From Phyllobacterium sp. OV277 (lineage in GTDB: Bacteria > Pseudomonadota > Alphaproteobacteria > Rhizobiales > Rhizobiaceae), in NCBI RefSeq assembly GCF_900104355.1, contig NZ_FNIY01000002.1, positions 1,054,001-1,118,000 on the forward strand: a stretch of 64,000 nucleotides of DNA, in the 5' to 3' direction. Below the pieces are notes generated by a model. The model was not told the origin of the DNA, made no database searches, and saw only the letters and a program-made list of their open reading frames with translations. Shown in pieces: positions 14,432 to 58,029 of the stretch. Numbering within the stretch: the first letter of the stretch is position 1; each line of letters begins with the position of its first letter. A program made the translations under genes and the position numbers.

Positions 14432-14470
14432 AAAAAACAACACCCACCGCGGGAGGAGGTGCGGTGGGTG
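14432..14470 (-). ncRNA. CCUCCUCCC hairpin 3 (cuckoo/CcsR-like small RNA) with terminator tail
   Basis: On the minus strand a 10-bp perfect stem (14441-14450 with 14461-14470) displays the anti-Shine-Dalgarno sequence CCTCCTCCC in its loop (complement of 14451-14459). It is directly followed by a T-rich tail (TTGTTTTTT), so this last hairpin also looks like the transcript terminator. Confidence 0.75.
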
Positions 14471-14478
14471 CTATTTGT

Positions 14479-14511
14479 AAAGGCCGACTGGGAGGAGGAG
14501 TGCCGGCCTTT
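14479..14511 (-). ncRNA. CCUCCUCCC hairpin 2 (cuckoo/CcsR-like small RNA)
   Basis: An 8-bp perfect stem (AAAGGCCG with CGGCCTTT) encloses a 17-base loop carrying CCTCCTCCC (complement of 14490-14498). It lies between hairpins 1 and 3 with short spacers where processing could occur. Confidence 0.72.
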
Positions 14512-14514
14512 GAA

Positions 14515-14548
14515 CGTTCGGGACCTGGGAGGAGGTTAATCCCGAACG
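14515..14548 (-). ncRNA. CCUCCUCCC hairpin 1 (cuckoo/CcsR-like small RNA)
   Basis: A 9-bp perfect stem (CGTTCGGGA with TCCCGAACG) holds CCTCCTCCC (complement of 14527-14535) in its loop. It starts 18 bp after the stop codon of the DUF1127 gene. In Rhodobacter sphaeroides the CcsR RNAs with the same loop motif are processed from the transcript of a DUF1127 gene. Confidence 0.75.
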
Positions 14549-14565
14549 CTAACTTTAGAATTCGA

Positions 14566-28804: not shown

Positions 28805-29821
28805 ATGAACCGTATTGCGCTGATCTTGCGGCGCATACGGTTCTTACCCGTCCTTGCCATTCTGGGTGTGTTGCCATCCCTTGCGCAAACAAATGCCGTT
28901 GCAACGGCAGTGGTTACAGCCCGGCCTGTCTCCTATTTCCGCATCGGTTCCACCGAAACCCGCTTTGGCGACCTCGAATTTGTTGGCGGTCTGGAACTAC
29001 GGTCCAGCAATGGCAATTTTGGCGGCATGTCGGCGTTCCGCTATCTCGATCAGGGCAAATCCTTTCTCGGCATCACCGACACAGGGTTCTGGTATGCGGG
29101 CGATATGCAGCGGGATGCAAAGGGTGTTCCAATCTCCGTCAGCGATTTTCGTCTGGCCCCGATTCAGGATGCCGGAGGCAATGCCGTTGAAGGCAAACGC
29201 AATGCGGATGCGGAAGGCATGGCCGTATCAGGCAAAACGGTTACGGTCTCATTCGAGCGTATCCACCGCATTGCCGAATTTGATCTTGATCTGAAGGATT
29301 TCGCCTCACGGCCGAAAGATTTGCCGCTGCCTGTTCCGAAAGCCGAACTGCGCAACAATCGCGGTTTTGAAACGGTCGCCTACGCACCTGCGGCGAGCCC
29401 GTTGAAGGGCGCGCGGGTCGCGGTTACCGAGAAGAGCATCAACAAGGCGGGTGATATCTATGCCGCTGTGCTGGAAGGGCCCGGCAAGGGTATCTTCTTC
29501 GTCAAGCGGCTGGATAGTTTCGATATCAGCGACGGGGATTTTCTGCCCAATGGCGACCTCCTGTTATTGGAGCGCCGGTTCAATCTTGCCAGCGGCGTCA
29601 TGTTGCGCATCCGCCGGATTGCCGCTGCCGATATCAAGCCGGGTGCGACTGTGGATGGTCCGTTCATCCTTGAGGCTGATATGCGCGATCAGATCGACAA
29701 TATGGAGGGTCTGGCTGTCTGGCGGGCCGGGGATGGCTCGACCCGCATCTCAATGATGTCCGATGACAATACGTCGATCCTGCAGAGAAATCTCTATTTG
29801 GAATTCCGGTTGGCCGAATAG
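28805..29821 (+). CDS. Exported esterase-like phytase domain protein (PF13449-type)
   Basis: A 338-residue protein with a signal peptide or anchor (RFLPVLAILGVLPSLAQ, about 12-29). The body resembles the phytase-like beta-propeller family: FGGMSAFRYLDQGKSFLGITDTG near the start, NADAEGMAV and FERIHRIAEFDLD in the middle, and NMEGLAVWRAGDGSTRISMMSDDN near the end. Real phytase activity is unproven for this family. The ATG at 28805 follows the cobT stop directly and precedes the signal peptide. Its last 28 bp overlap the convergent yhhQ gene. Confidence 0.8.
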   Translation: MNRIALILRRIRFLPVLAILGVLPSLAQTNAVATAVVTARPVSYFRIGSTETRFGDLEFVGGLELRSSNGNFGGMSAFRYLDQGKSFLGITDTGFWYAGDMQRDAKGVPISVSDFRLAPIQDAGGNAVEGKRNADAEGMAVSGKTVTVSFERIHRIAEFDLDLKDFASRPKDLPLPVPKAELRNNRGFETVAYAPAASPLKGARVAVTEKSINKAGDIYAAVLEGPGKGIFFVKRLDSFDISDGDFLPNGDLLLLERRFNLASGVMLRIRRIAAADIKPGATVDGPFILEADMRDQIDNMEGLAVWRAGDGSTRISMMSDDNTSILQRNLYLEFRLAE

Positions 29822-30444
29822 ATTGCGGGGGCGAAAATGGCAAGGATCGCGCCATAGGGCACCAGCATCACCACCGCCATGACAATCTTCACCATCAGAT
29901 CGCCGAAACCGAGTGAAGCCCACAGGGGTATCATCTGGCCAAGGAACGGCACAGGCATGGCCAGTGACGAGTCGGCCTGTCCCGTGGCCGCATCGATCCA
30001 TGCAAATTGCGCGGCAAAGGCGATGGAGAAGAACAAGAGCGTATCAAGCAATGAGCCGAAGACCGCCGATGCAAAGGGCGCTTTCCACCATGTCAGTTGA
30101 CGGAGTTTGCTGAACACCGTGATGTCGAGCAGTTGCGCGCAAAGAAATGCCGTGCCCGATGCGATGGCGATGCGCGGCGTTGCCAGCCAGATCGACAGGA
30201 TCACCGCAATGAAGAAACCGGCATAGACGACCTTGCGGGCGAATTCCGGCCCAAAACGGCGGTTCGACAGATCATTGACTAGGAAGGCGATGGGATAGGT
30301 AAAGGCCCCGTAGGTCAGGATTTCGCCCAATCCGAAATGCTGGAATGGATACTGCACCAATATGTTTGATGCTGCCACCACTGCGCACATGGCGAGGACG
30401 GGGAGAATGAAATCTGACAGGGTATAGGCGCGCGAAAGCGGCAT
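29794..30444 (-). CDS. yhhQ: Queuosine-precursor transporter (YhhQ/COG1738 family)
   Basis: A 216-residue inner-membrane protein with about six helices that imports queuine-pathway precursors such as preQ0/preQ1. Family marks include SDFILPVLAMCAVVAASNIL near the N terminus, TYPIAFLVNDLSNRRFG, and the WWKAPFASAVFGSLLDTLLF stretch. The ATG at 30444 is set by a preQ1-I riboswitch that ends on it. A longer frame to 30501 would start inside the riboswitch and upstream hairpin. Overlap of 28 bp with the phytase-like gene is convergent. Function from family and riboswitch agree. Confidence 0.9.
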   Translation of the reverse strand: MPLSRAYTLSDFILPVLAMCAVVAASNILVQYPFQHFGLGEILTYGAFTYPIAFLVNDLSNRRFGPEFARKVVYAGFFIAVILSIWLATPRIAIASGTAFLCAQLLDITVFSKLRQLTWWKAPFASAVFGSLLDTLLFFSIAFAAQFAWIDAATGQADSSLAMPVPFLGQMIPLWASLGFGDLMVKIVMAVVMLVPYGAILAIFAPAIYSANRNSK

Positions 30445-30471
30445 TTTTTTATCCTGGGTAATGGAACCAGC
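30442..30471 (-). promoter_or_regulatory. preQ1-I riboswitch overlapping the yhhQ start
   Basis: On the minus strand the sequence reads CTGG, TTCCATTAC, CCAG, then GATAAAAAAATG. This fits the preQ1-I aptamer: P1 stem CTGG (30470-30467) with CCAG (30457-30454), conserved GGTTC and ACCC, and the A-rich tail. The loop CATT (30463-30460) can pair with AATG (30445-30442), forming the P2 pseudoknot out of the start codon itself. The AGGA Shine-Dalgarno (30455-30452) overlaps the P1 strand. Ligand binding would therefore hide both start signals and turn off translation. Confidence 0.82.
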
Positions 30472-30478
30472 AACAATA

Positions 30479-30498
30479 AGGCCAGCATGCGCTGGCCT
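30479..30498 (-). terminator. Hairpin after rpmB
   Basis: AGGCCAGC and GCTGGCCT make an 8-bp stem with a 4-base loop, 35 bp after the rpmB stop and about 8 bp before the preQ1-I aptamer. The following TATTGTTG is only weakly U-rich, so termination may be partial and let some transcripts run into yhhQ. Confidence 0.45.
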
Positions 30499-30532
30499 CA
30501 AGCGATTATGATTTTAGAACCGTGTTGCCCGA

Positions 30533-57844: not shown

Positions 57845-58029
57845 GTGAAAAATGATCCGCCGGCATCGGTTCCAGATTACAGCTCCGACATCACGAAAGA
57901 GCCGGTCACTTCCGCCAGAGGGGCCCGGTGCTGCAATTCTGTTTCAGTTGGGGAGAAGCACAGACCAATGCAAGGGTTTGATCGTAATAAATAATTCAGC
58001 CGGACAGAATGCCGCGCAGTGCGCAGCTA

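Follow-up and report, generated by a model that had tools for sequence, protein, structure and literature searches.

RNAs of the PreQ1 family (RF00522) are associated with queuosine-precursor genes. The preQ1-I riboswitches of types I and II (Can, Tte and Bsu) are described as H-type pseudoknots with a specificity cytosine and an A-rich L3 (PMC10622847, PMC11625349); according to the same papers, the pseudoknot of Can and Tte takes in only the first two bases of the Shine-Dalgarno (SD) sequence and the Bsu riboswitch acts on transcription termination. The type III riboswitch is represented by the crystal structure of the Escherichia coli yhhQ element, in which the Watson-Crick pairs U11-A28, C10-G29 and C9-G30 are formed and preQ1 is contacted by C14, U6 and A27 (PMC10622847). 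This riboswitch is reported to prefer preQ1 strongly over preQ0 and, with preQ1, to repress a reporter 6.1-fold (PMC10622847). The P2 strand of type III is given as AAGG (PMC10622847, PMC11625349), and its occurrence is described as nearly confined to gamma-proteobacteria (PMC10622847) or to Pseudomonadota (PMC11625349). Control of yhhQ by preQ1 riboswitches in various bacteria is already known (PMC5372724).

We analysed a stretch of 64,000 nucleotides from Phyllobacterium sp. OV277 (the window), which carries yhhQ on its minus strand. Judged by its letters, the leader of this gene is, with a probability of roughly 0.85, a translational preQ1-I off-switch with the same plan as the E. coli type III aptamer. 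A gene for preQ1 import in rhizobia and related bacteria is probably shut off by a tiny RNA element that folds onto the start codon.

The yhhQ leader beside the E. coli type III riboswitch

The leader, read directly on the minus strand from 30470 to 30442, is CTGG-TTCCATTAC-CCAG-GAT-AAAAAA-ATG. The 5' arm of P1, CTGG (30467..30470), pairs with the 3' arm CCAG (30454..30457), and the nine-base loop between them (30458..30466) reads U6 U7 C8, C9 A10 U11, U12 A13 and C14 when numbered as in the E. coli crystal structure. The CAT within this loop (30461..30463) is the complement of ATG and would be the 5' strand of P2, the neighbouring loop positions being variable; its 3' strand would be the ATG start codon of yhhQ (30442..30444). 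L3 consists of GAT and six A (30445..30453), and its A at -1 (30445) corresponds to A27, whose role in E. coli is described in PMC10622847. The AG of the P1 3' arm is the first half of an SD-like AGGA (30452-30455). The leader contains a CUGG/CCAG P1, a nine-base loop that is rich in pyrimidines and includes C14 and U6, an A-rich L3 and a possible CAU:AUG P2, and we infer binding of preQ1 from the pocket bases and the gene.

The gene itself (29794..30444, minus strand) encodes a COG1738 queuosine-precursor transporter of 216 amino acids, matched by PF02592 and TIGR00697 above cut-off. The first-pass annotation had named this transporter and had read GGTTC, ACCC and seven A on the minus strand, where the ATG lies at 30444-30442; the letters, the strand and the coordinates were all right. 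It had also placed the whole AGGA within the P1 strand, where only the AG lies, the rest being outside the arm. A sequence search for a relative of the YhhQ transporter with a solved structure gave none (best E 0.47). Homologues of QueC and QueF (queC, queF) are present in the genome, so that the signal could stem from synthesis as well as from salvage.

The upstream neighbour on the same strand is rpmB, encoding ribosomal protein L28 (30533..30856; PF00830, TIGR00009), followed by an intrinsic-terminator-like hairpin (30477..30500, minus strand) that ends 6 bases before P1. Because this hairpin abuts the element, a yhhQ promoter would overlap it, or yhhQ relies on read-through; at its threshold, a promoter scan gave no sigma-70-like candidate. 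Hairpin-like stretches are seen by eye at the same place after rpmB in many relatives, one of them (L020) without a T-run. A pairing of the rpmB terminator arm GGCCAGC with the P1 arm was considered and set aside, as the stems differ in other genera.

The yhhQ leader of E. coli K-12 reads TTGGG-TTCCCTCAC-CCCAA-TGGTTAATC-AAAAAGG, with AAGG as the P2 tail. Placed in the E. coli register, the P2 of the window is U11-A28, A10-U29 and C9-G30. The window loop UUCCAUUAC has seven of its nine bases in common with E. coli and differs at the paired position 10 and the free position 12; a change from G29 to U29 in the tail compensates for the one at 10. The family loop TTCCATNAC with its AATG tail is therefore separated from E. 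coli by one compensated P2 pair (C10-G29 to A10-U29), by which P2 is shifted from the SD (tail AAGG) to the start codon and the base preceding it (AAUG).

Common to the window and the E. coli type III element are the yhhQ gene, C14, U6, the poly-A L3, the A before the P2 strand and three P2 pairs in register. However, P2 is made from AAGG of the SD in E. coli and from the start codon in the window, where the SD is located at the 3' arm of P1 and L3 is shorter. Counted from the top, the third pair of P1 is U-A in the window and G-C in E. coli, so that the three conserved P1 G-C pairs of type III (PMC10622847) are reduced to two G-C pairs followed by U-A, with C-G in the relative L171. The compact pyrimidine-rich nine-base loop of type III is found in the window and less well in relatives whose L1 reads UGG or UGC (72 of the 143 rows listed); half of the family rows listed have a G at L1 position 7, where E. 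coli type III has U7.

Compared with the other preQ1-I systems, the element shares with types I and II the specificity C, the A-rich L3 and, if P2 forms, the H-type pseudoknot, but their loops are described as larger. With RF00522 it would share the ligand class and the gene association (PMC5372724). Two general features of preQ1-I are present: the specificity C directly before the P1 3' arm with an L1 U and an A-rich L3 (C14 and U6 in 143/143 CAT rows) and, as far as letters can tell, a P1 hairpin with a closing G-C pair and a P2 between loop and 3' tail (19 aligned rows). The preQ1-I likeness seen in the first pass was borne out by these comparisons, which point to type III specifically as the nearest relative. 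The element is, by its features, a preQ1-I variant nearest to type III, and we did not place it in the published type III consensus because the AAGG tail and the three G-C pairs of that type are absent.

Conservation and covariation in Rhizobiaceae

The leader before yhhQ was kept in all 20 genomes of the genus that were examined, the window's own included. A loop-free pattern, which fixes only P1, the A-run (five A required before TG) and ATG and leaves nine loop bases free, matched 249 of 287 family genomes, while the same pattern read backwards matched 5 by our reading of the table. CAT occupied loop positions 9-11 in 143 of the 150 matches listed; the other seven look like chance, with unrelated loops and no CCCAG. 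One genome (G1046) holds two identical copies of the leader motif, at C30:48743-48771 and C32:23801-23829. Comparison supports the first-pass proposal that the start codon serves as the 3' side of P2, and this feature is spread through the family rather than peculiar to the window.

Thirteen distinct loop sequences were found among the 143 CAT rows listed, and U6, C9, A10, U11 and C14 were invariant in all of them, CAT being the selection criterion for these rows and U6 and C14 being left free. Position 7 was G or T and position 8 was C or G. Position 12 was C, A or T in 103, 23 and 17 rows, respectively, and the A at -1 was constant; of the pairing CATT:AATG proposed earlier, the three base pairs CAU:AUG were retained and the fourth was not, since its loop T varies against a constant A. 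Position 13 was A, C or T (C or T in 14 of the 143 rows listed), A13 being a possible gatekeeper in E. coli.

Among the same listed rows, G was present at position 7 in 72/143 and at position 8 in 56/143, the type III bases being U7 and C8. UGG or UGC replaces UUC in the L1 of 72 of the 143 listed rows, next to the ligand pocket, and an altered pocket or ligand preference is possible for such leaders. This variation of positions 7 and 8 beside the pocket would suit a reading in which the same pseudoknot and the same grip on the start codon serve another deazapurine (preQ0 or queuine) in some or all members of the family, most of all in those with UGG or UGC as L1. We hold this to be unlikely: U6, C14 and the A at -1 were constant in the 143 listed rows, the UUC loop of the window is that of E. 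coli except at positions 10 and 12, and the E. coli riboswitch is reported to prefer preQ1 strongly over preQ0 (PMC10622847).

Five of the listed rows, four from genomes of one genus and one from another genus, read CCCAGCC and have lost the AGG of the SD with P1 and CAT kept. Such rows bear on a reading in which the start region (SD, A-rich spacer and ATG) is conserved for ordinary reasons and forms no RNA structure. SD, spacer and ATG would indeed be kept under that reading too, but the SD is preceded by the 5' arm and CAT, P1 has changes in both of its arms, and CCAG and CAT outlast the AGG in these five rows; we disfavour it as extremely improbable.

Leaders anchored on yhhQ were read in 69 family loci, 24 from a first set of homologues and 45 from among 125 genomes in which one search had found no match, so that the 45 are enriched for exceptions; leaders L169-L175 were read outside this count. 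A P1 candidate was present in 58 of the 69, with CAT in 57 of the 58, and the one without CAT (L098) looks like chance. Among loci with no automatic candidate, L022 has the motif with CCGG/CCGG, in frame 57 codons before the start of the match, the copy in L094 is out of frame, that in L092 is in frame but its P1 is imperfect, and in eight others (L025, L093, L095, L104, L111, L114, L165 and L166) it was absent by eye. Several of the 11 loci without a candidate belong to genomes of 1.1-1.6 Mb. When the leader was shuffled by mononucleotides 200,000 times, 3.4% of the shuffles had a 4-bp stem with a nine-base loop and a fitting distance to ATG, and in 0.06% CAT was correctly placed as well. The element is beyond chance.

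For covariation we used an alignment (A2) of 19 chosen distinct rows, 18 from the family and E. coli with a shortened linker; two rows with ten-base loops (L112 and L169), contained in alignment A1, were left out. All lettered P1 cells paired and two pairs were changed on both sides, P1 reading CTAG/CTAG in L167 and CCGG/CCGG in L171. The P1 covariation score was reached by 0 of 500 shuffles, the count of further pair types (one of five measures) was reached by 40 of 500, and versions of P1 slid along the alignment paired in 23-49% of cells. P2 paired in every lettered row (17 or 18, E. coli having gaps).

P2 is invariant inside the family, and its covariation with the AUG context, which the first pass had proposed to look for among relatives, appeared as one compensated change between clades. 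The test of P2 was therefore made between clades, and P2 covariation rests on this one change. Versions with a GTG, TTG or CTG start were found in 0 stretches of the genome contigs by one exact pattern in which P1, spacer and A-run were fixed and which other forms could escape. With positions 10 and 29 freed, 120 phylum genomes were searched, and the pattern gave four matches in the family, all A10-U29, and 21 elsewhere. Each of these 21 was read. Eight stand before a YhhQ homologue (tblastn E <1e-23), every one of them with C10-G29, and the remaining 13 do not. In these eight yhhQ leaders, which come from other classes, ATG stands 6-9 bases after GG, outside P2.

Covariance models, folding energies and distribution

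A covariance model was trained on eight type III leaders, those of E. coli and L181-L187 (the latter seven from outside the class), with L188 held out, and was run at an E limit of 10 over 153 kb made up of the window, 28 family loci and L188. Its 17 matches were L188 (41.9 bits) and, always at the yhhQ leader, 16 of the 29 sequences from the family. Scores were mostly weak, only L188, L039, L150 and L171 falling below E 0.1. The 13 family loci that were missed comprise 12/12 of the UGG/UGC loops given to the model and one UUC loop (L090). In an unfiltered search of the window alone, the element was the top place with 11.7 bits (E 0.83) versus 9.8 for the next.

The Rfam PreQ1 model, named in the first pass as a check, gave no match over the window at the gathering threshold nor around the element at E up to 10. 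The same library gave no PreQ1 match to the E. coli type III yhhQ leader at E up to 10, nor, with E up to 1, to thirteen loci of the family and five more of type III. Because the control from E. coli is missed too, we rejected Rfam as arbiter, and its silence on the window, which the first pass had named as a refuting outcome, does not count as a refutation. Elsewhere in the window, Rfam gave a strong match to the alphaproteobacterial sRNA ar14 (RF02344, 103.1 bits) at 14435-14554 and a terC RNA match (RF03067, 52.7 bits, above gathering) at 57876-57936, both on the minus strand.

The lowest-energy fold of a 34-mer from the window was not P1; UCC was paired with GGA of the SD instead, and the minimum of a 126-base fold was likewise without P1. 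The folding energy of the element in the window was no better than that of shuffles, and neither was that of the E. coli control. Energy folding free of pseudoknots speaks neither for nor against a pseudoknot held by a ligand. The predicted SD-pairing fold, the presence of part of the SD inside P1 itself and the indirect way in which ligand binding is argued would all suit an element with no ligand, in which a conserved weak hairpin and CAU:AUG set a fixed level of translation or offer a landing site to a protein or small RNA. Against this, U6 and C14, the preQ1 readers of E. coli, are kept though unpaired in P1 or P2, and the downstream gene encodes the same kind of transporter; we regard an element with no ligand as very unlikely.

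Outside the family, the full architecture was found in none of 397 genomes of the order (UUC loop fixed; 11 such matches, all in the family), none of 385 genomes of the class (UUC loop fixed; the window being the sole such match) and none of 249 genomes of the order with the pattern open to UGG/UGC (9 such matches, all in the family); the set of 249 largely repeats that of 397, and a few family genomes were contained in each of these sets. The remaining matches of the order and class searches look by their letters like chance. Six yhhQ loci from outside the family (L023, L024, L026 and L028-L030), which are not among the 69, had no such leader by eye.

A search of genome contigs that lists only leaders with a shorter spacer gave nine in front of a YhhQ match, 9/9 with CAT, and eight other matches with neither YhhQ nor CAT. 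The named records with the shorter spacer are from Rhizobium, Sinorhizobium, Ensifer, Brucella oryzae, Chelativorans and one titled Marinicella sp. W31. The last (L149) has an L28-like ORF followed by the leader, its yhhQ is split over two frames, and it is perhaps misnamed. In the samples searched, the start-codon variant was seen only in the family of the window, which the named records point to as Rhizobiaceae in the broad sense of GTDB.

Proposed mechanism and its meaning

In the mechanism that we propose for the preQ1-I off-switch, P1 would be weak when preQ1 is scarce, and the AUG and the SD would be open. Rising preQ1 would bind between P1 and P2, where C14, U6 and the A that immediately precedes AUG would hold it. 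Bound preQ1 would lock CAU onto AUG, with the A-rich spacer between SD and AUG laid into the groove of P1. With the start codon closed to the 30S subunit, the preQ1/preQ0 importer would no longer be made. The same 29 bases would serve as aptamer and as expression platform, the aptamer ending inside the reading frame. We infer the closing of P2 on AUG, the loss of 30S access and the feedback on import from these features of the leader.

It seems to us fairly likely that these leaders form a family-wide preQ1-I lineage in which the ligand-gated pairing would have moved from the SD to the initiator AUG by one compensated pair, the first coding base becoming the ceiling of the pocket. Loss of the AGG, with P1 and P2 kept, would have followed in two or more genera, giving a preQ1 riboswitch on an SD-less mRNA, and the UGG/UGC branch may have a new mode of ligand recognition. 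Neither a start-codon P2 nor a preQ1 riboswitch of Rhizobiaceae is named in the accessible portions of the literature that we found (PMC10622847, PMC11625349, PMC10907184, PMC3766115, PMC2258182, PMC5372724), and the defining 2014 paper may contain some of the sequences. Riboswitches in SD-less mRNAs are called a future challenge in a 2024 review of the family (PMC11625349), and the leaders without AGG are candidates for such riboswitches.

At about 29 bases and with no separate expression platform, the element would be a minimal and easily tested switch. If our reading is true, a single compensated pair is enough to shift the target of a riboswitch from SD to start codon, and preQ1-I riboswitches would be present across Rhizobiaceae, where Rfam gave none in the loci scanned.
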